Shown here: piece by piece, positions 10,233 to 59,490 of the stretch
Layout of the letters: the number at the start of each line of letters is the position of its first letter
Position numbering within the stretch: the first letter of the stretch is position 1
Assembly: GCA_034620365.1 (NCBI GenBank)
Contig: JAQGEQ010000023.1
Coordinates: forward strand, 1-64,000
Direction of reading: 5' to 3'
From: Pegea sp. RAD2-039
Taxonomy: Eukaryota; Chordata; Thaliacea; Salpida; Salpidae
Length of the DNA stretch: 64,000 nucleotides
The notes under the pieces: generated by a model
Database searches by the model: none
Told to the model about the DNA's origin: nothing
What the model saw: only the letters and a program-made list of their open reading frames with translations
Position numbers and translations under genes: made by a program

Positions 10233-13200
10233 TTACGATGTCAAACGATTCCTATTGATAAGTAAAGAAGGTTTGTAGTACTCCTGGATTAGTAGCTTGA
10301 TGAGGAGCGCATGAAATAGTAGCACCAAAGACACAATAAAGATCCAAAAGATCACTGGGAAACCTGCAAGAAGCTAGCTAGTATGACATCAACAAGAGTT
10401 ACGTCATTAGTGACCTTTCGATGAGCGTTTATTCTCCCAGTGTTCTTCGTAGCGGATGAGACTTTGAAGATGAAGAGTTTCAGGAAGATTGACAAGATGC
10501 TGCCTATGGATCAGAAGGGATCAGTTGATAAAGATGAAGATCTTAAAAAATCACCTGTCGTATGATAAATAAAGGATTGGAGAGCGAGGTTCAGTTACAA
10601 GAACAGGGAGCAGTTGAGGACTGAGTTGTACAATCCGATCTTGTGATGTACATCCTGCTTCACATGCAAATAGCTGATCCTTTGATGCATCTGCAACGTC
10701 ATTGATGACATCACAACATCTATAATGACGTCACCACTTACTTCTAACAGAAGCGGAAATAAGAGGAGCAGAATTAGGTCCTTGATGCGCTTTAATCGCG
10801 ATGTCGACTTTATTATCGCGATATATGACGTCATGAAACGCGATGTCATTGTGAAGAATATCAGCATCAATATGAAGTTGAAGATCTCGATGAGTAAACT
10901 GTAAACCTCCAAAACTCAGAACAATTGCTTGTAAAAGTCCTTCAGCTCCTTCATCCAGTAAAGTATCACATCCTTTGTACCTGACGTGACGCTATGACGC
11001 TTCGCCAGAGTTTGTTGGTGACGTGAAAGGTGGCTGGTCCCGTATAACAGAACTTGGGCGTCTGTAAATGATGACTCACACATTTTCACTAGCACCAGAT
11101 GACTGACGTCACACATTTTCACTACCACCAGATGACGTCACACATTTTCACTACATCCAGATGACGTCACACATTTTCACTACATCTATAATGACGTCAC
11201 ACATTTTCACTACCACCAGATGACGTCGATGACGTCACACATTTTCACTACCACCAGATGACGTCACACATTTTCACTACCACCAGATGACGTCACACAT
11301 TTTCACTACCACCAGATGACGTCACACATTTTCACTCAGCATCAATGACGTCACACATTTTCACTAGACCAGATGACGTCACACATTTTCACTAACACCA
11401 GATGACGTCACACATTTTCACTACCACCAGATGACGTCACACATTTTCACTGTACCCAGATGACGTCACACATTTTCATACGTCCAGATGACGTCACACA
11501 TTTTCACTAATGTCCAGATGACGTCACACATTTTCACTATACCAGATGACGTCTATGAACGCACTACCACCAGATGACGTCACGTGAAAGGTGGCTGGTC
11601 AGATGACGTCACAACTTGGGCACTCTGTACCAGATGACGTCACACATTTTCACTAGCACCAGATGACGTCACACATTTTCACTAGCACCAGATGACGTCA
11701 CACATTTTCACTACCACCAGATGACGTCACACATTTTCACTAGCACCAGATGACGTCACACATTTTCACTAGCACCAGATGACGTCACACATTTTCACTA
11801 CCACCAGATGACGTCACACATTTTCACTACCACCAGATGACGTCACACATTTTCACTACCACCAGATGACGTCACACATTTTCACTACCACCAGATGACG
11901 TCACACATTTTCACTAGCACCAGATGACGTCACACATTTTCACTAGCACCAGATGACGTCACACATTTTCACTAGCACCAGATGACGTCACACATTTTCA
12001 CTATCACCAGATGACGTCACACATTTTCACTAGCACCAGATGACGTCACACATTTTCACTACCACCAGATGACGTCACACATTTTCACTACCACCAGATG
12101 ACGTCACACATTTTCACTAGCACCAGATGACGTCACACATTTTCACTAGTACCAGATGACGTCACACATTTTCACTAGCACCAGATGACGTCACACATTT
12201 TCACTACCACCAGATGACGTCACACATTTTCACTACCACCAGATGACGTCACACATTTTCACTAGCACCAGATGACGTCACACATTTTCACTGCCACCAG
12301 ATGACGTCACACATTTTCACTACCACCAGATGACGTCACACATTTTCACTACCACCAGATGACGTCACACATTTTCACTAGCACCAGATGACGTCACACA
12401 TTTTCACTAGCACCAGATGACGTCACACATTTTCACTACCACCAGATGACGTCACACATTTTCACTACCACCAGATGACGTCACACATTTTCACTAGCAC
12501 CAGATGACGTCACACAAACCTTTAATCGCTTAATCAAGTCTCTTCTTTCACTGATATCAATTCCTTTATCATGAAGTTTAGAATCAAATGATGATAAGAT
12601 GTAATAAAGAGTCGCGTTCACCGTCCTGACAACAAACACGCGTCAATAAAGCGCTGATGACGTCATCACGTGGTCAGTCACGTGGCTTCGGGAATTCCCG
12701 GCTCCACATTTGCATGAGTCGAAGTATCGATGGTGAGACCTGTGTGCAAGATATCTGTCCAAGCGTCCTGATGTTCCTCAAATAATTGGTCCACTGTCCT
12801 GTCAGTCAGCACCTCGTCCATGTACTTTAGGGTCGCTTCTACCACCGTTGATAGTTCACTCTCAGCTAGTTGCTTACTAGCGCGCGGCTGTGACGTCATT
12901 AGAACTGCAAGAAGTAAACTTGAAGAAGTTCAACTAGGGAATAAGGGTCTTGGGGTGCTGACCAGTGATGCAGTCAATATTTGATGGATTGGAACCAACT
13001 TTCACGGCTTTGGGGACATGTGTGGTTGCGATGACGATTGTCACGTAATTATCTTTAGAAGGTGATAAGATGTAGCTGTACATCCTGTACAACACTGATG
13101 ACGTATGACAGTCGAGATGGGTCTTATGGGTACTTGAAGCGCTTTTCCGGGTTGTCGACGAGTAGGAAGGCTGAATTACGTTGCAAGGTGTCGTGACGTA

Positions 13201-14110: not shown

Positions 14111-15451
14111 TCAATCTGCGAATTGAAGTCCTTCAAATTTACTAATTACTTTATCAGCTTCATCACTAAAATAAATCAAGTTTGAATTCTTGTGATTGCC
14201 AATAACAAACATCTTCTGATCAGCTACTGATTTAGAGGCGATCCAGTAATCATTGTGAATCTTACAGATAAACTCTTCATCTTCTGAATTTGGCGAGACA
14301 TTTTCCAGTTGACATAAAGCTTGTAACACTACACTAGGTAAAGAGCATTTATAAGCACATGGTGACGTCACGTTGTCATGACATGATGATTCCACAGCAA
14401 GCTGATGTTTGTTGAAATGAATGTAATTGATATGTGGTTGTGTGTTAGAGGCTGGTTTAGAAGAAGAGTTAAGACGAGAACTGAAAAGAGACAGATGAGC
14501 TCCAAGATGTTCATCTAAAATCTTCATACTATCTATATAAGGAAGTTCTAATTTAGAGATCAGTAAACACACAAGTACATGAAAAGCTTGATATATAAAA
14601 AGTTGGAACTTTTCCAATTTCTCTCCTTCTTTTATATAAATATGATTACTATTTCTACTACCTTCAAATATTCCTGAAATTGACCTACCATGTTGTAACT
14701 GGTACATATTAAGTCGACCTTTTTCTGGTCTATTAAATAATGAGTAAGTAGCCTGGCTTGTATGAGTGGTGAGTATATGAACAAGATTTCTTGTGTCCTT
14801 GCAAGTTAGATTACTATAGATGAGATTTCCTTCATATAATGCAACACAATACTTCATTGATGGAAGTTTATCTTGTAGAGATGAGATATAGGATTGAAAA
14901 TCAAGAAATTGCATTTTTGTGATCAGCTTGTGACCCAAACCTCCATATATTGAAAGTATATCAAAACAAAATGAATTTTCAATTTGGTTTAAAAAACGTG
15001 TAAAAAACCAGTTGAGTTTTTCTTTAAATATCAATTGACCTCTAGTTTCTAACAAATAGTTGAAACCACCAAACACCATATCAAATCTTTCACACCAACA
15101 TCTTAGTAAAGATTGACAAACACATTTGATAGCTTCACCATAACTACCAACTTGCTTTAAAGATTCATCATCTTGCTGATGAACTATCATAGATAAAACC
15201 ATCCAATAATCAGGTTCAGGGTTATAAAAAACATATTTTTGTTTGTCAGCAGCAACCAACTCGCAAGGATTATTTGGTTGAAATGTCTGAGTAAATTGAA
15301 CAAGTGCTTCAAACAAACCAACATTATTAATCTTTGTCATCAACTTTTCACTATCAGGATAATAAAACATAATCTTTTTTTCTTCATCGCCTTCTCGTGG
15401 TCCTAATTTCGAGTTATAAATCACAAAAGAGTTGACTTTGAAATTCTTCAT
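14111..15451 (-). CDS. CCZ1: CCZ1, vacuolar fusion / Rab7 GEF subunit
   Basis: An uninterrupted 446-codon frame (the human protein is about 480 residues). CCZ1 pairs with MON1 as the guanine-nucleotide exchange factor that activates Rab7 on late endosomes, lysosomes and autophagosomes. The N-terminus, with FVIYNSKLGPREGDEEKKI then IMFYYPDSE, is the family's first longin-domain signature, and VGLFEALVQFTQTF and EPDYWMVLSMIV follow as expected. A second longin-like region is around residues 190-290, and the C-terminal region has KIHNDYWIASK. The gene has no introns, unlike its neighbours, and few TGACGTCA motifs (one at about 14363). Its ATG is directly preceded by TTATCACAG and AAATTAG acceptor-like sequence. 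It is the upstream partner of KIAA2013. Confidence 0.95.
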   Translation of the reverse strand: MKNFKVNSFVIYNSKLGPREGDEEKKIMFYYPDSEKLMTKINNVGLFEALVQFTQTFQPNNPCELVAADKQKYVFYNPEPDYWMVLSMIVHQQDDESLKQVGSYGEAIKCVCQSLLRCWCERFDMVFGGFNYLLETRGQLIFKEKLNWFFTRFLNQIENSFCFDILSIYGGLGHKLITKMQFLDFQSYISSLQDKLPSMKYCVALYEGNLIYSNLTCKDTRNLVHILTTHTSQATYSLFNRPEKGRLNMYQLQHGRSISGIFEGSRNSNHIYIKEGEKLEKFQLFIYQAFHVLVCLLISKLELPYIDSMKILDEHLGAHLSLFSSRLNSSSKPASNTQPHINYIHFNKHQLAVESSCHDNVTSPCAYKCSLPSVVLQALCQLENVSPNSEDEEFICKIHNDYWIASKSVADQKMFVIGNHKNSNLIYFSDEADKVISKFEGLQFAD

Positions 15452-20959: not shown

Positions 20960-23900
20960 ATGAAGGAAAATATTAATTTATTAGCTTTGATTATCTTTTT
21001 TAATGTTATTGCTTTGGGTGATTGTGATTGTGTAAAAACAAAACAGACTATTTCAAGTACCAACCAAACATGTGTTATGGGTGATTGTGTTGATGGTAAA
21101 TGTGTTTGTTTTGTTGGTTGGACAGATACATTTTGTGACCAGTGCCATGGAAGAGTTTTGTTGAACAACACTTCTGGTAATTTTCTTCTATATTTTGTCA
21201 TGATATGTTGTTAAAAGCCTTAATAAGCTTAAATAAAATATTATTTTAAACTAAAATGATTTTTTCAGCATAAGATTTTTCTTTTTGTTATTGTTTTGTT
21301 AACTTATAATTTGCAAGGCTGAAGATGACAGATTATATGGCTTTTATGGAGTAAAAAATCAATTTAATTTTCTTATTATCTAATAAACGTTTTTTTGCTT
21401 TTACTTTGAGATAATTTTGTAATTGTTGTTATTACAAATAACTCATTCACAATTGCTAAATATTTTATACATTTAAAAGTTGATTATTTTAAGTAAAAAA
21501 GTTAATTAATCTCTTATTTAATCTTTTATAGGATATATCTCAGATGGCTGGGGAGATTATAAAGCTAACAAAAATTGCACATGGCTAATTAGTCCCTCTA
21601 ACAAGTATATATAAAGTTTAATCTTAAACTTATTCAATATAGAATTTCTAGAAGGTTACTCAACAAAAAACTAAATTTATTTCAGAAGTTCAAAACTAAT
21701 ATTAAAAATAGAAGAGTTTATTACTGAATGCGGATGGGATTACTTGTATGTGTTTGATGGAGATTCTATCTACAGTCCTCTACTTGCTTCCCTGAACGGA
21801 TACATGTACAAACAAGGTAATCCACATCACATGAGTCCTTCATACTTTCTAGGATGCAATTTTTAGGTGAAAAAGTTGAAACATTGAAACAACCTCCAGA
21901 AATTGAATCAACATCTGGTAAAGTCTTCATCACGTTTTATAGTGATCGAGCCAAAACTTCTTCTGGTTTTAACATCTCTTATTCAACCTCTGGATGTATT
22001 AAAAACTGCTCCAATAGTGGGTCTTGTGATGAAGATGGAAACTGTAATTGTTGGGAAGGTTTTAGTGGTCAGTGGTGTGAGCATGAAATGTGTCCACACA
22101 ATTGTAGTGCGGCCCAGGGTTTTGGTCTATGCAACATCACAAATAATTCGCGATCTTGTCAATGTATCTCCTCCAAACAAGGTCCTGATTGCTCCGTGAG
22201 CTCTTCACAGGTTTGTTTATCTCTTGAGATTACGCATCTTTTGAGATGATGACACAAAGAGGTCGCTGTTTCAATTTCAATCTTCGTTTACAGGGTTGGT
22301 GGACATCAGAATCTCTTGCTGGCCTAAATGGGGCGTCTTCTGCTACTGTGGTTCTCAACAACAATATTTGGAAGTCAGGTGGTCTACAATTTGGGTCTAA
22401 GACCAACAACCTGACCCTTTCAAGCTACAATGTAACAAATAAAAGCTGGAAAAGTGAACAGGGTACTGGGCCGCTTCCTACCATGAGGTATGGACACTCT
22501 ATGGTGACCTGGAACAATAGTTTGATTGTCTTTGGTGGCAAGTCGACCACTACTGAACGCTCTTTGTGCGATTCGTGGATCTATGACGTCATACAGTCGC
22601 GATGGGAGAAGTTAGAAGGTGATAGTAACCAAATACAAAATCTCACTGATCTCAAATCTGCCAACATCTCGTCGAAGCTTTGTTTGACGGGACACACGTC
22701 ACTGGTGGTGACGTCATCAAATGGTAGTGACGTCATGTTAGTTCTGTTTGGTCTCCATCCTGAATTAGATCTGTCCAACCGTGTCCTGGAGTATCAGATC
22801 TTAAAAAAGAACTGGGAAGAACCTCACGTCAATGAGTCGCCCTATTCAGGGCTTTTTGGACACGCAACTGCTTATGACGTCACATCACAACTCGTCTACA
22901 TCTACGGAGGATACAAGCGACCACTAGGTGGTCGAGAACTTGTACTGACTAATAGCTTGATGTCCTATGACGTCATCAATAGACGCTTTACAGCGATTGA
23001 AGCGACAGGGAGCGTAGTGCCTCTACCCCGCTTCCTTCATTCGTTACAGCTTCTGGATGGTGTATTGTATGTGTTTGGAGGAGACGCGCGCACTGCAGAA
23101 AACCAACGCGGTTGTTACGTCACTAACTTCGAAGCGTTTTCCATTTCCTATCAAAGGTATTTGGTACTCAGTGAGGTGTGACGAAACAGTGATTCAGTTG
23201 TTGCTAGTTGGAAGTATGTGGACAGCATCGAGTACCCTGGACACGCTGCAAGGTATGGACATACTTCAGCTGTGGTCCACTCTCGTCTCTACATCATCGG
23301 TGGTTACGATGGACAGATGATTGATGACGTCATCATCTACCAACCAGCACGTTGTCACGTGTTGATGTCACGTGATGAGTGTGAAGGTGATGACGTCATT
23401 GCAGTGATGTTATTATTCAATAATCTTTTTTGTAGCATCTTGGACTAACTGGACGTTATCATGTCACTGGACAGACACAAATGGTTGTGAACCAGTAACC
23501 ACTAACTTATCCATTCGTCCAACAAACTTGTCATGTTCTTTATTGTCATGTGCCGATTGTCTGGTGGCTGGTTGCCACTTCTGTGAAGTCCAGTGTGTTC
23601 ACAATTCTTCGTCCCACACTTGCCGTTACCAACCTATCCCATCTGTAGACAAGTGTCCCAATGATGACGTCATCGAGTGTTCAAAAGCACACACGTGTCA
23701 TCAATGCCTAGCAAAATCCCGCAGATGTAAATGGTCCATGTCTGGATGTGTTACTAATAGTAACGCGACTAATTGGGTGTGTCCAACTGAATCATGTACG
23801 AGTCACGTGACATGTGATGAATGTAGTGATGACTTGAGGTGCATGTGGTGCGTCAATCATCAACGATGCTTCGATTCCACCTCATATCTCATCCAGTATC

Positions 23901-27249: not shown

Positions 27250-29305
27250 TTATGGAGGAAGAAGTGTCAAGGATCCAAACCCAATTAGATTCTTTTCATC
27301 TGCAAACTGATTCGGCATCAAACTTCCACTAAGCGGGAATTTGACATTTTTGTTGAAATCGGGCGAATCGACCAACTTCGAGACATTTGCTGCAACTGTA
27401 GAGAAGCATTGTAGCGACATCAAGTGGTGAAAGTGATGGACTGACTTACCAACCACCTTATCTTTGCCCTCGATTAAACCTACTGCCACCAGTTCTTGGG
27501 ACACGCCGTCTGGAGTGTCCTGACCAACCACAAACTCGAATTTGATGTCCTGTAAGCTCTGATTCTTTTCCGTTCTGCAACAAATTCAACTTTGACTCAA
27601 ACCACAAACATCGACGACATCGACAACGGCGGCGGGAAAACCGACCTCACACGCAGGTTAAAATTGTATCTCTTCTCGATCTTTTGTTGCACTTCACCAA
27701 CAGCTGGTGGCAATGACGTCACCACTTCCTCTTCCGTACCCGCTTCTTTCACAGGTGTGACGTCACTACTCGAGATGGTGTTCTCGTTAACAGGAAGTGA
27801 TGCAGAGATCGTTGAGGGAGCTAAGAGCTTATCCTGGGACTTGATAGTGGAGCTGTACTCATCATCGCTCCATTCCCAATCTCCATCTTCGTTCTTGTGG
27901 AGTCTTCCACTAGATCCTGGGACTCGTTTGGGCTGTAGGTTCAAAGATGAAGATCAAGTTAAGGAAGAGGATGTTGAAAGACCTTTTTTCCGCGATCTCG
28001 AAGCCTTGGAGCATCATTGAGAAGTGTCCGATGAATGTAATCGGGACGTTTGGCTTTTTTGAAGAAAGGATCTTTGAGAAGTTGAGATGCACTGGGTCTG
28101 AGACACAAATTATCTGATGTGGATGATATTGGCGGAGAAGTTTTTACCTTTTTGAAGGATCCCGTTGAAGACACAACTCAATCAGCTTCCGGAACTGCTT
28201 CGTGTATTTCTTTGTGACGTTTTTGTCATCAAGACCTGTGTCCAAGTTTGGTGGGTCGTTTTGTAAGGTGAGAATGAGCACCTTAAACAAAGGAGCAAAT
28301 GGATCGTGTCTTTTCTACTCAAACATCACGAACCTTCATCGGTGGATACTTGTGATAAGGGGCTTTCCCAGTAGCAAGTTCAATCGCTAAAATCCCTAAA
28401 CTCCAAATATCCGCTTTCTCATCGTATCCTTGTTCCGTCTACAACACACAAAAGTCACAAGTTTCCTCAGATCATCATCATCTCACTTGCTCCATCACTT
28501 CCGGTGCCATCCAACAGGGTGTTCCTACAAATGTATGCCGGGGACGAGTCCCTCGTTCACCTGTCATCGCTATACAAGAGCTAACACCAAGGTCAGCAAG
28601 TAGAACTGACCCATCGTCCGCGAGAAGTATGTTTCCAGCCTTCACATCTCTATCGAAACAAATTTGTGGATTTTTACAAATCAACAGATTCAAGAAGAAA
28701 CCTGTGAATCTGTCCATTCTTATGTAAATATTCGAGAGCTTTTAAAACATCTTTCAACATTGTAGCAATTGCTATTTCATCAAACACTCCATGTGCGTGC
28801 TGATTGGTCAATATTCGATGTTTAATCAAATCAAGCACAGAGCCTGATACAATCAAATATTCAACCAAATGAAAATGAGTAATATGAGACTTACCATAAC
28901 CAAGTAACTTCATTACTAACCAAACTTCAGTTTTTACCACAAACGCTTGATAAAAGGTGACAAGGTTTGGATGCTTACACTGCCTCATTGCTCTGATTTC
29001 TTTTAACTAAAAACCAGAATGAGTTAAAGATTACTTCTAAGAAGCACCATCCTACCAAATGTTCTTCCTGGTTGCTCACTTCAAGTGAGATCCTTTTAAT
29101 TGCACAAAGTTCATTTCTTGGTGTACATTTTGCAACTTGTACAATTGCAGTTGAACCATGCCCTAAAAATTCCATAATTTCATCACTCAATCTCATTAAG
29201 ATATATTTATCTCAAAAATTTAGTTATTAAATAATTACCAATAACATCTTTTAGCTCATAATCCTCTTTCTTGATTGGCCAAGACCGATCCTCAACATTT
29301 GTCAT
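27250..29305 (-). CDS. OXSR1: SPAK/OSR1 Ste20-type kinase
   Basis: Serine/threonine kinase that acts downstream of WNK kinases to phosphorylate cation-chloride cotransporters and control cell volume. The ATG at 29305 opens [20 protein letters not shown]. The glycine loop is split by an intron and reads [11 protein letters not shown]. The catalytic Lys lies in [11 protein letters not shown]. Next are [19 protein letters not shown] and [10 protein letters not shown], where the usual DFG is DLG. The T-loop is [17 protein letters not shown] with the WNK-target Thr. The lobe ends with [17 protein letters not shown] and [12 protein letters not shown]. The regulatory S-motif [20 protein letters not shown] (about 27930) precedes the C-terminal CCT/PF2 domain, which binds RFXV/I peptides ([20 protein letters not shown] to [13 protein letters not shown]). 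The family is certain. Invertebrates usually have one gene for this pair, so the symbol is nominal. Confidence 0.94.
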
Positions 29306-32300: not shown

Positions 32301-34503
32301 TGATTGATCTTGTGCCGTAGTACATTAGTAGTGCTTCTGTTTCTGCTTTAAGCCCTGCACTGAGCCATCTGTATGTGTGATTCAAGTACACATTGCGCTG
32401 CATCGTTCTTTTTATAAATTGGCCATGAAGTGGTTTTGCCTCTATAAATTCGCTCAGAGTTTATTGAAAATGCTTTTTTCTAATACCTTTTCATGTTTTG
32501 AAAGTTCTACTTATGTTTTGTTGCCTTTTCTAATGTCTTTTTGAAATTTTAATTTTTTCAAATCTTTCTCTTTGTTTTGTGCTAGAGTATTTCTTTTTTA
32601 CTTTTTTCATGCTTATGGACCAGATTTATAATCCAATTAACTATTAATTATAACAATTTAAGTAAATTTTCAAACCAATTGCTACAGTTTTACACGTATT
32701 TTCTATGTTTACTACTCCTCTACTGTGTTCAGATCTTTTTATGTAGTGTCGGTTAATATCTGCTTTCGGATAATATTATTATTTCTTTTATTTTTACTGA
32801 TATTATAACTATGAAAAATTTTAAATCAGTAAAAAAAGTTTTTTAATGGTATTATTGGATAAAAATACAATACGTGATACGTCATCAGCATTATAAGTAT
32901 ACAACTTTTACATCTTTAGTAGTTTTATTTAGTATTTATTTTATGTAATATTTTTTTCTTTATTTCTAATTAAATTTGAGTTTTTATTACTAGAAACAAA
33001 ATTTGTTAATTTTTTTTTATGACTTTTGTATGTGGCCCCTAGACTTTACTAAGACAAAATAACTTAAATCTTATTAGATGAATTTACTGCTTTAATTTTT
33101 AAGAACTCACTGGATTTATTGATTATTCTACAGTTTTCAATAAAAATAATCTTTTTAGTTGTAAGTTCCATTCATTTTGAAAGAAGTAATAATTACAGTA
33201 CTTATAAAACGTAACTAAGATCTAACATGAAAATAAAGTGAATGTAAAGCTTTAACGTTCTAATATAATATTGATTATTTGAATTTCTCATTAGTCTCAT
33301 TTAATACTTTATCAAAGATGTCTCAAAAATATAGTAATTTTTCCTTATAAATGATCTTTCGATTACAAGACAAATTTTATAAGAAACATATCCTAATTTA
33401 TTCAGTATATTTTTAAGAAGTAATAATGATTAATATAAACGTTTTAGGCGAAGACTAGTAAATTTTAGTTCTGTTATTTAAATTTTAGTAAATGTAATAT
33501 TCTATAAAAGTTTTATTTCATGTTCAAACAATTTTTGCATTTGAAAAGTTTTTCCAATAAGGGACTTTTGAAACTTAGGTCTAACATGCTGAGGCCTATA
33601 TCCGATCGTTACTCTAAATAATTATACGGTGAATGATGTGAATAAATCCTATAAAAATTACAATTGTTATATTTAACTAATGTAAAACTAATATTAGATT
33701 ACAATTTCTGAGTTTACTTTAATTATTATACTGCAAATATGCAGTGTAAATTTCAATTTTAAAAGTCATCTTTTAGTTTTAATTTATTGAAATATTTATA
33801 ATCCTTAAATAAACTTTTTTTTTTAATATTTAGTTCATAATAATTTTTGTATTTGTCACTTTTTACATGTATTCATAACTAGCTTTAATCAATCTGTTTT
33901 ATAATTAGTTATATTTAATACAATAGTGAATTATGAATAGTCTCTAATAAATTTTAACTTGATGTTAATTTGTTTTCTATTATTTAAATATGTTTTGTAA
34001 TGTTTCATGTTTTTTTTTTCATTGTTCTGTTAGTGATCAATTATTAAAGTTAATGTATTATATAATACTATAATTTATTTTATAAATGTTATAATCAATA
34101 GTATACTTTATTTATTTTATATATTTTCTGTTTACATATTCTTAATAATTAATATTCTTAATATTATAGTATTATTAAAAAATCTTATAGTACTGACTAA
34201 CAAAAATAACTTTTTTATAGAAATATATCCACATTTGATAAAAGAAAATTTTTATTTAGTTTTTAATTTGATGTTTTAAAATACATTTGATAAATTTTAT
34301 AAATATTTTGACTGGAGATGTCTTCTTAACTCATTTTTAAAATTTGTTTTTAGTTTTATAATTTCAATTGTATAAACCATTTTATAAATTTATTAAAACT
34401 GATAAACAAGATAAAATCGTTAAACTAATTTTTATTTAGAATTATTTTTTATATAATTTTTTTCAGAATTTTTTAGTAAATATTTATATTACTTTTATTG
34501 AAA
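29306..34503. other. 5.2-kb AT-rich intergenic stretch
   Basis: Extremely AT-rich DNA between the divergent SPAK/OSR1 and MADS-box genes. The only clear structure is the GC-richer candidate exon at 32128-32271 and a less AT-rich continuation to about 32460. Near the right end TTTTTTTCAG (about 34465) is an acceptor-like site upstream of the MADS-box ATG. Confidence 0.65.
32128..32271 (+). CDS. Candidate orphan exon or gene remnant
   Basis: Directly after a strong acceptor (TTATTTTTTCAG ending at 32127) the plus strand reads 47 codons and a stop, with balanced composition unlike its surroundings. It includes KSLINSHHPDNLDSQAYVN and LVPSSYYWYDTIDGFWFSCF. I do not recognise the family. It could be the last exon of an undetected gene or the remains of a mobile element. 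No matching upstream exon was found. Confidence 0.35.
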   Translation, partial: KLKSLINSHHPDNLDSQAYVNTAIKGELVPSSYYWYDTIDGFWFSCF

Positions 34504-37500
34504 ATGCCTTTTCTTCAAAACTCAAATGATGATGGTCCTAGAAGAAGAAGGACAGTCAGGCTAGAGGATATTACATCAAAGGGACAGTGGGATAGGACTT
34601 TTTATCCTAAAAAGAATACTTTGATGTCAAAGGCCTCTGACCTAGAAATTTGTTCTGGTGCTTTGGTATGTTTTTGATGACTTTTTTAATAGAGATTTTC
34701 AGGTTTCTTTTTTGTTGCCTCGTTTTCTATCTTTAAACCCTGAAGCATTACCAATATAAATGTTTCTATTCTTCAGGTTGCAGTGATTATTTGGGCACCT
34801 ACCGGTGAACAGTTCTATTATGCTTCTCGACAAGTTGTGAAGAAAAATTTAATTAAAAGTAACTTGATTCTACCAGAAGCAATTCTTGAGTATCAAGAAA
34901 GTTTACATATGCAACCAAGTTCATTATCAGTCAGTCAGCAAATAAGAATTTAATATTTTCAAATTGAAATTGGTTTTTTATAGAAACCAGTTTCAAAGCT
35001 CGCAGAAAGTTGGAACAAAATAACACCAAAAAAAGCAAAAAAAAGCTTATTATATGATCCTGACCAGGTTGAAGGTGATGAAGAGGATGAAAAAGGCAAT
35101 CCAGATAATAAATCTTTAAAATCTGACAAAGAAATGGAAGCAACCAAAATGTTTAATGCTCATTATTCAAACCGTAAAGTAATTATCTTAATTTGCCTTT
35201 AACAAATTTACTGATTTCTTTCACTTTCAGTCAAAACCTTCAACTTCTGATGATGTGATCCTCGTGTCGGCTCCTACAGCACCTCGACCACCAATTGCTT
35301 GTCAAAGTTCATCCGAATCTTCTACAGAAGAATCCTCTTCCTCTGAGGAATCTTCATCTGAAGAATCATCAGAGGAAGAATCATCATCTGAAGAAGACAT
35401 AGAACAAGAAAAAGCAAGGTTGAAAGCAGAAATTAATATGTTGAGAGAGAGATTACCAAAAAATGTTCAAATGGCAAACAAACCTAATTCAAAAAGTGCA
35501 ACCTTACAACATCCAGCAAACTCGTCAACCAATCAACATCCAGCAAACTCGTCAACCAATCAACATCCAGCAAACTCGTCAAAAGGTGTTGTGACTCCAT
35601 CAAAAGGTGTTAAAGTTCAGAAAGCAAACAAAAAACAAAAGATTTTAAGACCAGTGCTCCAAGAGAAACTCAAGAAACTGCTCAAATCAAAAGATTCTCA
35701 AAAAAAGCCATCTAGAACACCAGATGCACCATCTAGAACACCAGCTACTTCATCTAGAACACCAGCTACTTCATCTAGAACACCAGCTGCACCGTCTAGA
35801 ACACCAGCTGCACCATCTAGAACACCAGCTGCACCATCTAGAACACCAGCTACACCATCTAGAACACCAGCTGCACCATCTAGAACACCAGCTACACCAT
35901 CTAGAACACCAGCTGCACCATCTAGAACACCAGCTGCACCATCTAGAACACCAGCTACACCATCTAGAACACCAGCTACACCATCTAGAACACCAGATGC
36001 ACCATCTAGAACACCAGCTACACCATCTAGAACACCAGCTACACCATCTAGAACACTGAGATCGACAGAAGAACCAAAAGAAATGTCCAAGAAACCACCT
36101 GTTGTTATGGAGGTGAAAATAAAAGAAGAACCAGTGGACTTAAGAGATGATGTAATCATCAAATCAGAACCACTCTCACCACCTCGTCGCTCACCACCTC
36201 GTCGCTCACCATCAGTTGTACATCTTCGTCTCAACTCTCCTACGCCGTCAGAGATGGGAGCTTCAAGCAAACGGGCATCTAAAAGAGGAAGTGTTGAAGT
36301 TAGCTCAACTGGAAAGCGGCCTCGTATTGAAATTTCCAAAAAATCAGCAAAGATGCTGAAAGATCGAATCTCGGGCGCGTTTCATCGCGATTATCAAATG
36401 TTATCAAGGGATATGAAACAACTAGTGGATAGTTTGTGGCAAAAAATCTCACCAACACGTCATCCACTCAAGATCTTCATCTACAGATTCAAGTTTCTTT
36501 TCATAGATGATCCATACTTGGCTGAGTTGATTAATACAAATTCTGATTCAAATCGACTTTATCAACTACTCAAAGAAGTTCTTACTCCATCTGATCTGAT
36601 TGATTTTGAAATGGTTTTACATTTTGTCTTTTTAATTTTATGGCCCGAAATTAAATTTTCTTTTTTTGTAGTTTCATCATCAAATCTCAGTGATTACAAG
36701 ACATGAAATTGTCAAAAGAACTAGATCGCGCTCATCTCAACTAAAAGCAAAAGTAAAAGATAAAGATGAAGACATCAAACAGTTTACTCGAGACTTCTTT
36801 CACTTTTGTTTCTCTAACCAAATGTATCTCTCAAACCGCCAACTTCTAGGTAACCATGACAACCGATCTATATTACCCTAGAATATATCTAATTAACCTA
36901 CATGTACAGATTATCTTCTCTGCAATATGTCGATTGAACACATTACGCGAGTTCACAAACGAATCGTGTGTGTTCCGCTTCAGTGCCTCATCTACGAATG
37001 TGGATGCTTCAAATCACTCCTCACTTCTCTTCAATCGCGTTTTCGCGACGATTATCAAATCGCTGATTATTTCAGACAAATTAATCTGAACTCCTCGTGT
37101 TACAGCGTAATGTTTGCTCCATTTAAGGTAATCTTCATCTTTAAAATATTCTTAAACTTCTAATCTTCATCATCTGATCTTTATCATCTGATCTTCATCA
37201 TCTGATCTTCATCATCTGATCTTTTCACTCTCAAACCGCTTTCACAGGGTTCCAAGATTCTCTGTTTTGTGATACGAGACTCAAAATGGGTGGCTAAACT
37301 TGTTAAAATATCTCAGACTGGAATCCATGTAAGTTCCTCCCTACGAAACCCAATCAATCTCATCCTGCAAACTTCTTTTTTAGGATCAACCGACAGATTT
37401 TCAAGGACCTGATTTCTCTTCATATGGTTCTTTCACTCCAGCCCCACCTGTAACTCGAAGACGCGAGACCTTCACAGTAAATCCCGATCCTTGGAATCGA

Positions 37501-37572
37501 AGTTCTAAGGTGAGTTGAGAAAGATGAAGATCGGAACATCAAAATTGTTGTTTGTAGAAGAAGAAAAGATGA
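34504..37572 (+). CDS. Divergent MADS-box protein with heptad repeats (novel architecture)
   Basis: Nine exons join in frame into an 836-residue protein. Residues about 13-72 form a MADS-like domain: RRRRTVRLEDITSKGQWDR then TFYPKKNTLMSKASDLEICS, then GALVAVIIWAPTGEQFYYAS. They align with the SRF/MEF2 pattern (basic start, TF-KKK, LM-KA-DL, hydrophobic strand, YAS). Then follow a linker, a Ser/Glu-rich acidic tract (35310-35400), a short coiled coil (EQEKARLKAEINMLRERL), a basic stretch (KKQKILRPVLQEKLKKLLK), about 17 PSRTPAA/T heptads, and SUMO-consensus motifs VKIKEEP and IIKSEP. A predicted alpha-helical region (FHRDYQMLSRDMKQLVDSLW onward, through CFVIRDSKWVAKLVKI) is unrecognised. The last exon, after a 48-nt intron, adds KKKR and a stop. 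A nuclear DNA-binding regulator is inferred. It is neither SRF nor MEF2, which lack these extensions. Confidence 0.8.
35708..36057 (+). repeat. 21-bp repeats encoding PSRTPAA/T heptads
   Basis: Seventeen in-frame copies of CCATCTAGAACACCAGCTGCA-like units within exon 4 of the MADS-box gene. The heptad keeps Ser-Arg-Thr-Pro in every copy; the last two positions alternate Ala, Thr, Asp or Ser. Third-base and Ala/Thr variants are shuffled among copies, as expected of recent unequal exchange. Confidence 0.95.
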
Positions 37573-38479
37573 AGATTTGCTGATTGACTTTTTTAGTGGC
37601 TCTATTTCACAACTCTTGTTTAGCTTGAAATACTTATCGACATATTTGATGAATTCAAGCTAAATTTTAAAATGACGATAATATGCAAATGAAGATGTTT
37701 ATCTATCGGTTTCTTTAGGAATAAAAGGTTGCAAATTGGCTGAAATATTTTCAAATTTTTTTGATTACACTTTTATTTGAGGAACTAAAATCTTAACTTG
37801 AAAATTTAAAAGTCAATTTTCTTATTTATTTTCACAAAAAAACTTTGTATTTAATGTAAAAAAATATCATCCAAAGTAATTCTAATAACTAAAAAAAATG
37901 TCTTTAAAACTTTAAAAGTGAAAAGTCGAAGTTAAAGATCGAGAGAAAGTTGTAAAAGATCATGAAAACTTTACAGCTTAACATTTACAGTTAACAGTAT
38001 AAATTTTATTTTACGACAAATGTAGAAAATAACTGAAGAAGTTATTACTATAAAGAAGGTTTGTTTATCATTATGTTTGAGCTTTTGTAGATTTAGATGA
38101 CAATTTCTACATCTAGATTTTATATATATTTTTAGTTATTTTAAAGCTTTCGAAATTACTAAACAATTTCTTGTCGCTCAACATTTACAATTTGTTGATG
38201 CAAATAATTCACAACGTAAACATAAAATACCAAAAGCGAATTTAACTTTTACAATCACCACGAGTATAACAACATGTTCAACAGCAAAAGTACATAAGGT
38301 GTCAGTTTTCCTACTAAAAGACTTTTCATCATCTGAAAGCAGATTTGTCCGGAGGCCGTCCGTCGCTAACGACTACTGAGTTTTTTAGTTAGGGTGAAGA
38401 TCAAATATTTTCGATCTTAAAGATTTTAGAATTAGCTATGAAGGAGATAAGCCAATTGTGAACAAATAATCTGAGCGCA
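37573..38479. other. Spacer between MADS-box gene and LINE remnant
   Basis: AT-rich and without a supported gene. A GC-rich patch at 38345-38380 (GTCCGGAGGCCGTCCGTCGC) stands out at the left edge of the LINE-derived region. It may belong to that insertion, but I cannot show it. Confidence 0.5.
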
Positions 38480-39289: not shown

Positions 39290-40200
39290 GTAAACCAGCT
39301 GTAAATTGCTTGAACCAATACTCTATCAGTAGATCTATTATTCAAAGAGTATCTTCGGTCCCAGACCTTGACATTACCCTATCATCTAACTTTAAATGGC
39401 ACAATTATGTTTCCAAAATCTTTGGAAAATCAATCAACCTTGTCTTCCTTATTACAAAGACCTTTAATTCTAAGGACCTATGCTTTTTTATCAATCTTTT
39501 CAAATTGTAATTACGTCCAATTCTTGAATACAATGTCAGTGCATGGATGCCATATCAAGTTAGTGATATCAATAAAATCGAGTCTGTTCAGGCCACATTT
39601 ACGAGATTATTATGCAGGAAACTTAATATTAAATATGATAGCTATAAACATCGTCTCAGTCTCTTCAATTTAGATACTTTGGAAATCCGACGGTTTAAAT
39701 ACTACTTAATTCTTATTTTTAAAATTATCTACAATTTAATTGACATTCAGTTTGATGATTTCTTTTCTATTAGTCCTTCCTTCAAGTTACATCAGCTCAG
39801 ACGACACCCATTACACCTTAATAAGTCCATATCACCTGGTAAATTGATCAGAGCAAATTTTTTCTCATATCGCACAATTGGTACATGGAACCAGCTGCCA
39901 TCTGACATTGTCATGTCAGAATCAATCGCGTTGTTCAAGAAGAAGTTGAATCGTTATAATATTGCCAACATTGTCATTTCTAAACTATGACTTTTTTCTC
40001 TTTTTTATATTATTAACATTCTATGTAATTGTTCACTGTTATATGCTTTGAATGCTATCGAAGTACCATGTGTTACATCTTTTACTTTCTATATTTTTGG
40101 TTAAATAGATGTTATTTGTGAGAATGTGTGTTAGGGAGAAGTACTCTCTTCAGGTACCCTCCTTCGCATTTATTATAATAAATAAATTGTTATCTCAAAA
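39290..40200 (+). mobile_element. LINE 3' part, sense orientation, with one stop codon
   Basis: One frame interrupted only by a TAA at 39508-39510 encodes the C-terminal part of a CR1/L2-like retrotransposon polymerase: IIQRVSSVPDLDITLSSNFK, LRPILEYNVSAWMPYQ, KIESVQATFTRLLCRKL, LDTLEIRRFKYYLI and ANFFSYRTIGTWNQLPSDIV. The frame ends at 39988-39990. A ~200-nt 3' UTR follows, ending in a CCTTCGCATTTATTATAATA element and a short AATAAAT tail at 40180. No direct target duplication was identified. Confidence 0.85.
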
Positions 40201-43038: not shown

Positions 43039-45505
43039 TTATTTACGACAAAAAACAATATTTGGATCTGATTCGAGTTTTGAAAGTAATTCTTCAGTGC
43101 TAATTGATAACCGACAACAAATGTCATCTGTATGCAAATTATCTGTCAGCAGCTTCCGAAGCTCAATCTGAAGATAACAAATCTAGTTGTTGTTGACATT
43201 TTAAAAGAAATTTCATACCGGAATATTCTGTGAAGTTGATATTAAAACTGGGTATTGATGAATCCTTCTAATCAAATGATTCAATAATCCAAATTGAATC
43301 AGTTTTCTATCATCATACAAAATAGATTTATAAGACTCAATTATCACACAAACTCAACTGTTCGTTGATTCTGGTGATTTGTTCTTGATAACGACTGCAC
43401 AAATCACGAACAGTTACATCTGGTGCTAATCCAGCAAATAGCGTTAGAACATCTCGAACAGTTGGTTTCGGGCGACCCGTTCTCGCCACATAACACAAAC
43501 AGTCTTGTTGTAACTTTTCATTTTTCATCAAACTATAAACAATTTGAGTTTATAAATATTTGTTGTTTTAAAAGTAGAGGAGTTTTTGTGAAAAACTCAG
43601 ATATTTGATTAGAAAATTTTCTTTTTCATTTCAACATAATTTATTAAACTGAAAACTTGTTAAATTAAATTAAACTTGTTACTAAAAAAATCATTTTTCA
43701 TATTTTAAAATAAATTAAAGAAAAATGTTGTTAAAAAAGTGTTACGAGTCATTTGTAATTTTAGAAGTCAAAATACTTTAAAGAAAACAAATAGTTAAAT
43801 ATCAGCTAATCTCAAATATTTAATTTAATAATCTTGATTACAAAAGTCTCTTCAAAAATTCATCAATAAAAATTACTTTGCAAGATTTTCTTCAGTAGTG
43901 TAAGTGTTGCAATATTGAAAAATAGAAATAAGTTTGATAATCCCAAACAAGCAAAGATCTCTCATACAAACTCGAGTAAGTTCCAAGTCAACATCCGCAA
44001 GGGTTGCAATCTTTTTAACATGATGAAACCCATCGATGTAAGGAAGAATCTAAGAAAAGATTTGATACAATTAGCTGAAGAAAGATGTGAAGCTATCATC
44101 AAAGTATTTGTCCAACTTTTAAATCTTCATAAAAAAAACTTTTATGATTAAAAGTACAAGGATCTACTAACACGTTGAGATGTTAAATCCCACTCTTTCA
44201 AATCAAAATCTTCTTTGGATATAATCAAAATTGGGACATTGTAATCAAGAACATCAGGAGGTAATTGAAAAGGAGGAAAAATTTTGAGATATAATGTTGT
44301 TGCTTCAGTCACTGAAGTAATACAACTACCATTTTCATTCAATTCAATTAACATTCTCTTCAACATATCTACATGAATATGAAGAATATTACATCAAAAA
44401 TAATTGGTTCAAGTATTTCTAAAAATCATCAATAAATGCAGATAAAGAAATATAATTTGCATCTATTTATTTAATGCATGGCTGCAGATAACAAATCACA
44501 TGTCTATTATAGCAAACATGAAACAATTTCAGAAAGATAATGAAAAGGTCTTAAGTACCACAGTTAAAGAAGAGTTGAAGCATAATGAGAATAAAAACAA
44601 GTTTACCTGGTATTAAGGCTTTAGTTTCTTCATTAGAAACATAATATGATTCCTTTTCAAGTTCAATCATATAACAAGATAATTTTCTAATCAAGGGTAC
44701 ACATGGTGAACTACGATGTTCTGCATCTATTATCAGTCCAAAATTAAAGATGTATTCATTCCTAGGGTAGTGTCTATCAACAATGCACACTGGACAGCCA
44801 ATAACCTTCTTTTTTATAATGTTTCTATAATTGTACAAATTATATTTAAGTTCTTTGTTTTGGTTTACTTGAGTCAATATTGTGTATTAGTTGGTGAAAA
44901 TTTATTGTTTATACTTTCTTTAGTTTATTATTTTCACAAATGCATAATAAAAATAATTCTAAATTTTGATGGTTTTAATTTGTTAAAATAATTTATAAGA
45001 GTAATAAGAAATAAATATCCAATTTATAGATATGATAAAAAACTAAAAGAAAAACTGTAGAAATAATCGTTTATTAAAATAAGTGATTATTAGCATTATG
45101 CTAAAAGAAATATTTCTACTAAGGATATAAAGAAAATGTCAGTATAAGACTTTTGAAAGTGTTTAAATGTTTATAACTAACATTGTGATTAGTTTTTGTT
45201 GCAATTCAGGTTTTGGTATAAGATAATTCATGACAGCTCTACAAAGTTTGCTTTGATTTGGTATACAGCCTTCAGGGTACTACAAAAAGTAACTTCATCA
45301 AAATATCATTCTAAGAAACTAAAAAGATTAAAGAGATTTATAACAGCTTTTATGAAAAATATATTTAAATAAAACATTAAATGACAATTGAAACCTGATA
45401 AGTTATTTTTGGACCAAGTTTGTGATGAAATTCACTGAAAAACATCCCTTCAATAGGGTGTGATTTTATGTAATCTTTGGCAGTTTTACCAATTATTCCA
45501 CTCAT
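43039..45505 (-). CDS. NPRL2: NPRL2, GATOR1 subunit
   Basis: Component of GATOR1, the GTPase-activating complex for RagA/B that silences TORC1 at the lysosome when amino acids are low. Exon 1 (ATG at 45505) gives MSGIIGKTAKDYIKSHPIE and MFFSEFHHKLGPKITYQ, the family longin start. Exon 2 has VMNYLIPKPELQ. Exon 3 (44880-44640) has KKVIGCPVCIVDRHYPRNEY and IFNFGLIIDAE. Exon 4 (44366-44165) has MLIELNENGSC and DYNVPILIISKEDF, then EWDLTSQR. Exon 5 has ILPYIDGFHHVKKIATLADV. Exons 6-8 give YVARTGRPKPTVRDVLTLFA, RKLIQFGLLNHLIRRIHQYP and the C-terminus LLSKLESDPNIVFCRK with its stop at 43041-43039. The human RPYLYTG-like stretch before the C-terminus appears shortened. An LINE-tail-like repeat sits in intron 3. 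Confidence 0.94.
44460..44530 (-). repeat. LINE-2 family 3'-tail copy in an NPRL2 intron
   Basis: The segment with ATAACAAATC and TTATAGCAAACATG is about 70% similar over ~65 nt to 46424-46490, the 3' UTR side of the second LINE fragment. It is in the same orientation, with an ATTTATTTAATGCA tail. It appears to be a short 5'-truncated relative. Confidence 0.5.
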
Positions 45506-56621: not shown

Positions 56622-59490
56622 TTGATAAAATGGAAATTGATCTATTTTTCACCACGGGCTAACGAAGCATCGAAAGTATCTTGCTTTAAAAAGTCTAAAA
56701 AACAGTTAGAATTTGTGATAATCAATTATATTTCAAAGCATTTAAATTTAATTATTTTTCTTTAGTGACTTATTTTCATTAAAGTTTAAGTTATAATCAT
56801 TAAAATTCTGACCACTTTTTTTTGTTAAAAACGAGTAGAAAAGACTATTTTTGATTAATTTTATGAATAGCATGGTAAACGTTGTCATTTAGTTACAATT
56901 ATAAATAAAACTTATACAATTTTTGTGTGACGTAAAACGCACGTGAAAACTTTATATTTTTTTAGGCAAAAGACATTTTGGTACACGTACGCCCATTCTC
57001 TCATTTTGGTGTGAAATATGTTTTGAATACTTCACTTTATCAGATTTTATTATTTATTTTGATATCGCACTTAGCTATCAACTTATTGTATTTCTGTTAC
57101 TAATTTTTATTTTGTTTTTTCTTGCTTTCATTTGAGTTTAACATTTTAGAAATAGTTTTTAAAGCAAATTTTTACTCATTTTTTTTAAGATTAAATAAAA
57201 AAGTTAATATTTTATTAACACTTGTATTTAAAAGATATTTGAATATATCAGTTTCTTTATACGCTTTTTAGTAGTAAATAATATTTTAATAATTTTTATG
57301 CTTCAGTTTAATCTAATGATTTTATTATTTCGTTTGAAGTTGCTGATGCCTCTTTCAGTTTGATAGTATAAATTGTTTAACTTTTAACTTTACTCAAAAA
57401 CAACAAAATTAAAATAAACAAAATGTTCTTTTGAAGTAACTTTTAAACTAATTTATATTATGCTGATTTTATACCTAGATTTAAATCAATTTTAAACAGA
57501 AAATGAAGTTTTATTTTGTAGTAAATTTTATTCAGTATCTTAGCAACCTTATTTATGTAATCTATTTACATAATATAAATATTTTTCTGTAGGATAAATC
57601 ATTGTTATGTAAAATTATATCTTATATAAATAATTTACATCTTAAAAACTTTGTTATCTCATCTAAAACTAATATTTCCCTAAATAGTTTTATTGAAAAA
57701 TGGATTATTCCTAAAAATAAATATGTGGAAAAGTGTTGATAATTTAATTCATTAATCATTAAGATATCTTTTATTTATTTCAAAATAATTTGCTGTTTTA
57801 ATTGAGTAATAAATTTTAAGTATGAAAATTATATCAATGTTTAATTTGACAAAACAAAGTTTTGAAATAATAATGTTGTAATATTTTGCTCAAGAATTGT
57901 AAAAGTTTATATCATCTTAAGATAATTTTGTAAAAGAACTATCTTGCATAAAAATGTAAACTCTAAAAAAAATGAAATGTCAAAATTTGATAATTATCTT
58001 TTTTTATTATTTAAAGAAATATTTTTGTTAAATGATTTTATTTTTTAAGGTTTACTCAAAATATTTTTTGCATTTTAGCTGTTTTAAATAATATTATAGA
58101 AATAATTGGTTTAACAAATGTTAAATGTTTTTTAAACTATACAATTCTTATTTTAAAAAATATATTTTGAGATTATTTTTTAATATATTTTATAAAAGTA
58201 TAACCTTTCAGTAATAAGCAATAAAACTTTTATAAATATTCTTTAAAATTTGCTAAAATGCTGATTTAGTAAATTAATAACTTTCATATTTTTTAGCAAG
58301 CTTTTATTTATCAAAACAATTGATATTTTGAGATTAATTTTGCTATTAAAAGTTTTTTTTTTCATTGTTGTTTGTATTAAAACTTTGGTAATTATTGTTT
58401 AAGCTAAATTATTGTACAGAAGATGGTTTTTGTTAAAAAAAATCACTTGAAAAATATGTAGTTTCAGTATTCTATTATATCAAAAATAAAGACAATTTGT
58501 ATTGCTCTAATTATAGAGAATTTACATTTTCAATAACAATGGAGATATAAGAACTATAAAAAAAGTTATATAATTTCTTTTCATAATTTTTATAGAATAT
58601 TTTCTTAAACAATCAAGTTTTTCAAGTTTTATGTTTGTTGATACTTTTTAAAGATATGTAAATGTTATATATTCCTTGATAATAAGTATCACTTTACTTA
58701 TAGACATATATGGAAATTAAAAAGCTTTTTATATTTAACTGATATGATTTACATAAATGTATTATTCATCTGCTGGTTGAATTACGTTTGTTTTTATCTA
58801 GATTAAATAAGTATTATTCCAATAAAAATTAGTTTAATGACCTTTTTTTGAACTTAAGTGTATGTAAATGTTTTAAACGAATTTGCTTATTGTTTAGACA
58901 GAGTTAAGGTTGGAAAAGGAAGTCAAAACATTATTTATGTTTTGCAGAATAAATTTTGTATTAGCATTGTTTTTATAATAGAATATTTTTGATATAAATT
59001 AAAAAAGACTTTAAGCCTTTATATTAAAAATTAAATGTTGAAGTTTTCACTTAAGTTAGTAAACCTTTGAATAATTATTTATGTTTAAAAGAAAATAAAT
59101 ATTTTGGCTTAAATTAGATTGTCATTTAAAACTTTGATTATAATCTAAATGAACTATTAAATCTTAATAACTTTTCATTATGTTCATGATATTTATCAAG
59201 TTTAGATAATATTTTTAAATTTGTAATCTTTTATATTTTATTGTAGCTATGATTCTAATCAGAAAGTATTTGTGAATTTCTTTGCTATCAGCAGTCTTAT
59301 GTAAACATTTAGTTTATTTTTTATAAAAAATAAAAAGTTCTTTCATTTTTAAGTCAGATATTAAGCTTTGTTATTTTATTTTTTTCAGCCTTATTACATA
59401 AAATTGATTTCTTCTTTAATTTGCATCAGTTTTATGTATTCAAATGAGAAATAGTTTTTTAGTTGTAGAATATTGAAAAAAAAAGTAGAA
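56622..59490. other. AT-rich intergenic DNA upstream of the myosin gene
   Basis: About 2.9 kb with no recognised gene. A patch near 56930-57000 has TGACG and ACGTACGCCC and is the only composition change. A TTTTTAGTTGTAG acceptor-like sequence ends at 59467, 23 nt before the myosin ATG. Confidence 0.6.

Follow-up and report, generated by a model that had tools for sequence, protein, structure and literature searches.

Genomic setting and gene model

The stretch of 64,000 nucleotides analyzed here (the window) forms the start of a 526-kb contig in the genome of the salp Pegea sp., which comprises 105.7 Mb in 387 contigs. Protein-coding genes recognizable by Pfam matches are distributed along its length: a diacylglycerol kinase (3609-4085, reverse strand), a CCZ1/INTU-type longin protein (14111-15451, reverse), an attractin-type propeller (22228-23181, forward), an OSR1 C-terminus and a kinase domain (27250-27585 and 28674-29006, reverse), NPR2 (44551-44886, reverse) and a myosin head with an RA domain (59455-60348, forward). 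Repetitive DNA is also conspicuous: the contig opens with a minisatellite (positions 1-2014) whose 23/45-bp units are of the CTTTCTTTCCTAGATTCAAACTT type and whose strand bias is extreme (GC skew -0.67), and positions 11070-12516 hold 49.5 copies of a 29-bp minisatellite with the consensus GATGACGTCACACATTTTCACTACCACCA, the consensus unit of which contains the palindrome TGACGTCA. ORFs at 39314-39990 resemble by eye a LINE reverse transcriptase in its C-terminal part, and a Pfam search of 39511-39990 returned no family at E-values up to 0.001. Elsewhere in the genome, on contig C235, two homeodomains of the posterior Hox type (97051-97218 and 119215-119385) lie 22 kb apart on opposite strands; we take these to be Hox12 and Hox13. 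Further Hox-type boxes are on other contigs, and Cdx and Hox1-like homeodomains are also present elsewhere.

The gene that concerns us spans positions 34504-37572 on the forward strand. When its exons were placed anew from the window sequence, the nine-exon, 836-residue model of the original prediction was obtained again, with the same exons, the same number of residues and GT-AG boundaries at every intron. The introns are short and AT-rich (48-120 nt, GC 22-40%). Exon 1 (34504..34665, residues 1-54) encodes the first part of a MADS box, i.e., the N-terminal arm and first helix, and exon 2 (34777..34929, residues 55-105) the beta strands of the box followed by residues that are not clearly similar to either MEF2 or SRF. 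A linker with basic and acidic character comes from exon 3 (34984..35178, residues 106-170), and the bulk of the protein from exon 4 (35231..36613, residues 171-631), which runs for 461 codons without a stop. Thereafter come exon 5 (36672..36849, residues 632-691), exon 6 (36910..37127, residues 691-763), exon 7 (37248..37328, residues 764-790) and exon 8 (37384..37509, residues 791-832). The terminal exon 9 (37558..37572), with five codons for KKKR and a stop, is uncertain and could be replaced, as reading through from exon 8 meets a nearby stop.

The open frame lends strong support to this model chiefly in exon 4, where the predicted frame has 0 stops over 461 codons as against 13-46 in each of the other five frames. 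Codon usage adds nothing beyond this and was dropped: it placed the predicted frame on top in 8/8 exons with stops counted but in 1/8 with stops excluded, indicating that the former result came from the stops. The donor of intron 4 (36614-36671) is a weak GTTTTA. A polyadenylation-like signal, AATAAA, is found downstream of exon 9 (37720..37725, forward), and a poly-pyrimidine/AG acceptor, TTTTTTTCAG, lies 37 nt upstream of the ATG (34457..34466, forward). The latter might serve as a spliced-leader or 5' UTR splice site, given that the Ciona spliced leader is present in this host. A query made up of that leader followed by GT matched 259 sites in the genome with at most one mismatch (141 + 118), versus 0 + 1 for the reversed control; PMC7986045 and PMC3407064 both give this leader sequence for Ciona intestinalis. 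On contig C4, positions 1135044-1142219 form a tandem array of ~199-bp units, each with the exact Ciona leader, and in the part at 1135000-1135500 a GTAAGT donor follows the leader. The SL RNA of Ciona carries AGCTTTGG close behind its leader, according to a section of PMC7986045, whereas the C4 array does not have it there.

The MADS box and its relatives

The MADS box occupies residues 14-76 and is encoded by 34543-34665 joined to 34777-34842 (34543..34842, forward). With residues 1-133 as the query, SRF-TF was the sole Pfam family to match (E=1.2e-5, 25.1 bits), and the match covers residues 32-67, spanning the exon junction at residues 54/55. The profile match to be expected of a MADS protein was thus obtained, if slightly under the curated cutoff of 26 bits: the query of residues 1-133 falls 0.9 bits short, and the whole 836-residue protein (E=1.4e-4, 21.6 bits) is likewise under it. 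A phmmer search of PDB sequences recovered 18 distinct matches at E-values up to 10, every one of them a MADS protein, including SRF (0.0012), MEF2D (0.0017), MCM1 (0.0045) and SEPALLATA3 (0.03); those to human SRF and MEF2D extend over ~62 residues without gaps. Because the join between exons 1 and 2 had been picked with a MADS box in mind, a control was run on two-exon joins from both strands of the window (GTR donors, YAG acceptors, introns of 42-200 nt, open frames), each scored against a six-box MADS profile built without the tested box. Among the 3139 candidates (1503 + 1636), the proposed join ranked first with 28.5 bits; joins sharing an exon with it came next, and the best unrelated join reached 7.4 bits. 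Moreover, 0/5000 shuffles of the 58-residue box attained the observed score against each of the six reference boxes. The original identification of a MADS box is borne out by the SRF-TF match and the first rank among the joins, and it appears well supported that the first two exons encode a real MADS box and that the protein belongs to the MADS superfamily.

The genome also carries an ordinary MEF2 box on contig C11 (E=5.1e-51 to MEF2D) and an ordinary SRF box on contig C25 (E=3.4e-47 to SRF), both strongly conserved, with 59/63 identities to MEF2D and 57/63 to human SRF, respectively. Since these are present alongside it, the window gene is a third MADS gene of the genome, and the earlier statement that it is neither SRF nor MEF2 is upheld by their separate existence. 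A search of the genome with the SRF-TF profile at E-values up to 0.001 listed, exon by exon, only the genome's own SRF and MEF2; the window, with its box divided between exons and diverged, was not among the matches. When the genome was searched with protein queries of 133 and 66 aa from the gene itself (E-values up to 10), the only match to either was the gene itself. As 2 and 1 candidates, respectively, were scored in these searches and SRF and MEF2 themselves were missed, a close copy of the box is thereby ruled out but not an equally diverged fourth MADS gene.

The affinity of the box within the superfamily is harder to pin down. Over 63 ungapped positions it has 18 identities with the genome's own MEF2, 19 with MEF2D, 17 each with the own and the human SRF and 15 with MCM1, and the own MEF2 and own SRF boxes share 21/63. 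By this measure it is about as distant from SRF and MEF2 (17-19/63) as they are from each other. In a tree of seven sequences it falls outside the MEF2 clade (three sequences, 95%) and also outside a clade of own SRF, human SRF and MCM1 (78%), on the branch between SRF and MEF2; with a branch length of 2.7 substitutions per site, such a position is also expected from long-branch attraction. Shuffle-based scores for the 58-residue box favor neither family (z 7.8-8.4 for MEF2 and 7.7-8.1 for SRF/MCM1). Over all 83 columns, SRF/MCM1 (z 7.3-7.9) comes out slightly above MEF2 (6.8-7.2), an advantage due to the residues after the box, which lie closer to SRF (1.4-2.3; MCM1 1.0) than to MEF2 (0.6-0.7). 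In the 25 residues that follow the box, an ungapped comparison detected no MEF2 domain, with 1284-1431 of 5000 shuffles scoring equally well or better at the z of 0.6-0.7, while for an SRF-type extension 474 of 5000 shuffles were as good for the own SRF (z 1.4) and 90 for the human one (z 2.3). The box is interrupted by a phase-0 intron after residue 54, a position that matches neither that of the own SRF intron (after MKK) nor that of the own MEF2 intron (after RNRQ).

Other features give a similarly mixed picture. With SRF and MCM1, the type I MADS proteins, the window protein shares a TG turn and 17/63 (SRF) or 15/63 (MCM1) positions of the box; it differs from them in that its box stands at the very N-terminus, that the SRF-type segment after the box is weak at most and that the tail is, as far as seen, unrelated. 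With MEF2, the animal type II MADS protein, it has in common an N-terminal box and, in its C-terminal half, a psi-K-x-E-x-x-S-P motif followed by KR-x-R, but it has no similarity to the MEF2 domain after the box in the ungapped comparison and carries Gly in place of Arg15, Trp in place of Arg17, Pro in place of Lys23 and Ser in place of Lys30. In MEF2 numbering and an ungapped alignment, Arg3 (residue 15) and Lys24 are seen alongside Gly15 (residue 27), Trp17, Pro23 (residue 35) and Ser30, Arg3 being kept while Gly and Pro stand where MEF2 has the DNA-contacting Arg15 and Lys23. As described in a section of PMC10178880, Arg3 of the N-terminal arm reads the A/T minor groove (tested in SEP3), the guanines at the CC/GG borders are recognized by a helix lysine from each monomer, and Arg15 and Lys23 of MEF2B touch DNA at the flank and the border. 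In the window protein, helix one probably starts only at Pro23. The hydrophobic strand residues, VAVII..FYYAS, are of the MADS type and should build the dimer sheet. These residues suggest a protein in which the dimer core is kept and DNA specificity is changed or reduced.

Tail motifs and the C-terminal region

Downstream of the exon 3 linker, all on the forward strand, the tail begins with an acidic Ser/Glu tract (35306..35395, residues 196-225). This is followed by a tandem array of 21-nt units coding for PSRTPxx heptads (35708..36056, residues ~330-446), with 16.6 copies at 94% matches and 16 PSRTP/SSRTP heptads in the protein; the near-identity of its copies suggests a recent expansion. 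Next come a SUMO consensus, IKEE (36119..36130, residues 467-470), a phosphorylation-dependent SUMO motif, IKSEPLSP, which fits the full psi-K-x-E-x-x-S-P pattern (36158..36181, residues 480-487), and a basic signal, KRPR (36314..36325, residues 532-535), 52 residues past the latter. The acidic tract, the PSRTPAA-type heptads and the SUMO motifs (psi-K-x-E sites) reported earlier for this protein are thus all in place. Heptads of this kind, and a C-terminal region such as that described below, are to our knowledge absent from MEF2.

The order of IKSEPLSP and then KRPR is the same as in the terminal exon assigned to the genome's own MEF2, where IKREPASP is followed by KRQR; we take this exon to be the end of that gene by its position, its strand and its MEF2-like end (KRQR, then NWAT and a stop). 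The psi-K-x-E-x-x-S-P motif occurs twice in 37341 residues, a figure that covers six-frame ORFs of at least 80 aa from the window and the examined genomic loci and counts overlapping loci more than once. One occurrence is in the window MADS gene and the other in the assigned MEF2 exon, and each has a KR-x-R signal downstream. The motif appeared in 223/20000 shuffles of the window protein, and none turned up when 9.9 kb surrounding the own SRF were read in the three forward frames, a scan in which an intron-split motif would escape detection. The motif is set out in a section of PMC3438180, which lists MEF2 and heat shock factors among the proteins regulated through it. It is mainly this succession, SUMO motif first and basic signal second as in the own MEF2, that leads us to prefer a MEF2 origin. 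SUMO motifs and basic signals are nevertheless short, are found in unrelated factors and can arise twice.

The remaining part, from the end of exon 4 to exon 7 (36353..37328, forward, residues ~545-790), is non-repetitive and unexceptional in complexity, with a hydrophobic content of 24-56% per 25-residue step. Its ~250 residues had no significant match in Pfam, NCBIfam, PDB sequences or viral contigs, and a search of the genome with the C-terminal 306 residues returned only the gene itself and one match at E=0.7, to an ORF that looks by eye like an arginyl-tRNA synthetase and was judged to be chance. The best repeated lead is the SKI/SNO/DAC homology domain, which Pfam aligned to ~50 residues of exons 5-6 (E=0.15 and 0.053). 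At 12.2 and 13.7 bits versus a cutoff of 24.5, this is below significance, and it is kept as a weak lead only, since a genome-wide search with the profile (E-values up to 10; five candidates scored) listed six matches, each of which exceeded the cutoff and lay outside the window. A globin at residues ~560-630 was rejected, resting as it did on two PDB sequences of one globin kind (E=0.98 and 1.7) with no Pfam globin match. Matches to INO80E (0.019, 0.081), DUF4763 (0.12), viral topoisomerase I (0.14), MC6 (0.18) and gamma-hemolysin/leukocidin sequences (0.97-1.3) were taken as chance. Within exon 6, five His/Cys residues are spaced one every fifth residue (36939..37001, forward, residues 701-721); a row of this kind arose in 4/20000 shuffles, and one with any period from 2 to 7 in 11/20000, for a pattern that was noticed post hoc. 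It is a possible metal site. The original prediction that the C-terminus is unrecognized therefore holds for Pfam, NCBIfam, PDB sequences and viral contigs, but one copy without a known relative defines no domain family.

Origin and possible role of a third MADS gene

Accounts of metazoan MADS genes, in the sections of PMC9287330 and PMC13293092 that deal with them, name SRF and MEF2 only. No third animal MADS gene was announced in the open-access titles and abstract beginnings among the matches listed, a scope that lies mostly outside the subscription literature. On the defining features tested, the window protein belongs to neither SRF nor MEF2, and of the two origins the MEF2-type one is the more likely. 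A lineage-specific third family, as the original prediction also proposed, is so far a candidate, the searches having covered this one genome. The reading we prefer, with about even confidence, is that this is a third MADS-box gene of a tunicate and most likely an old, fast-evolving MEF2-type duplicate, with dimerization and an altered reading of DNA.

Several other histories might be envisaged. It is unlikely that the model joins pieces of two genes, its MADS exons, low-complexity exon 4 and C-terminal exons not all belonging together, or that the gene is decaying, even though operons occur in tunicates (according to a section of PMC7986045): every intron is short, AT-rich and GT-AG, the model runs through 836 stop-free codons versus 275 stops in the other five frames of exons 1-8, the first Met past exon 4 is residue 681, 50 residues into exon 5, and a polyadenylation-like signal lies downstream of exon 9. 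What speaks for such a composite or decayed state is the weak donor of intron 4, the codon usage, which without stops backs the predicted frame in only 1/8 exons, and the near-identical tandem array of the heptads. Descent from SRF, the "heavily diverged SRF" of the original prediction, seems similarly improbable. Such a duplicate would have kept the dimer core, lost the SRF partner surface and its reading of the site and acquired the SUMO motif and tail independently. In keeping with it are the top PDB match by E-value (SRF, 0.0012 vs. 0.0017 for MEF2D), the TG turn shared with SRF and the slightly better fit to SRF than to MEF2 of the post-box stretch and of the 83 columns overall. These score differences, however, are within noise, the tree sets the box outside SRF and MCM1 (78%) as well as outside MEF2 (95%), and the SUMO/basic tail is like that of the own MEF2, with no psi-K-x-E-x-x-S-P in the forward frames of the 9.9 kb around the own SRF. 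SRF is thus the less favored origin of an equidistant box, since the tail carries a SUMO/phosphorylation motif and a basic signal like those of MEF2.

An ancient third MADS lineage, dating from about the time SRF and MEF2 parted and since lost from most animals, would fit a box whose distance to either of them matches that between the two and which is placed on the branch between them. Yet long-branch attraction would place a branch of 2.7 substitutions in the same way, and the tail motifs fit a MEF2 origin, leaving this history with a small share of our confidence. Horizontal acquisition from a plant, fungus or protist also accords with the equidistant box but is very improbable, for the top matches are animal SRF and MEF2, with yeast MCM1 and plant SEP3 lower (all E-values being modest), and the gene is intron-rich and stands amid animal genes on a 526-kb contig.

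If the gene is indeed a fast-evolving MEF2-type duplicate, its product would be a nuclear protein dimerizing via its MADS strands with itself, MEF2 or SRF. The CC/GG border of the CArG box would no longer be read, and the protein might either bind A/T-rich DNA loosely or pair with normal MADS proteins and so modify or sequester them. Once phosphorylated at its SUMO motif, it could be shifted towards repression, and the C-terminal region may recruit a partner. A more elaborate proposal, to be regarded as tentative and clearly less probable than the preferred reading, is that of a third tunicate MADS class that has lost the reading of the CArG border, kept dimerization and a MEF2-like SUMO switch, gained a new and possibly metal-binding C-terminal module, and regulates SRF or MEF2 via heterodimers.

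SRF and MEF2 run the muscle and heart programs in tunicates. A third chordate MADS gene in which two DNA-reading helix residues are replaced would show how a MADS factor can be converted to another use, and would do so in a group amenable to experiment through ascidian embryos; the same gene also supplies an unrecognized protein region to define.
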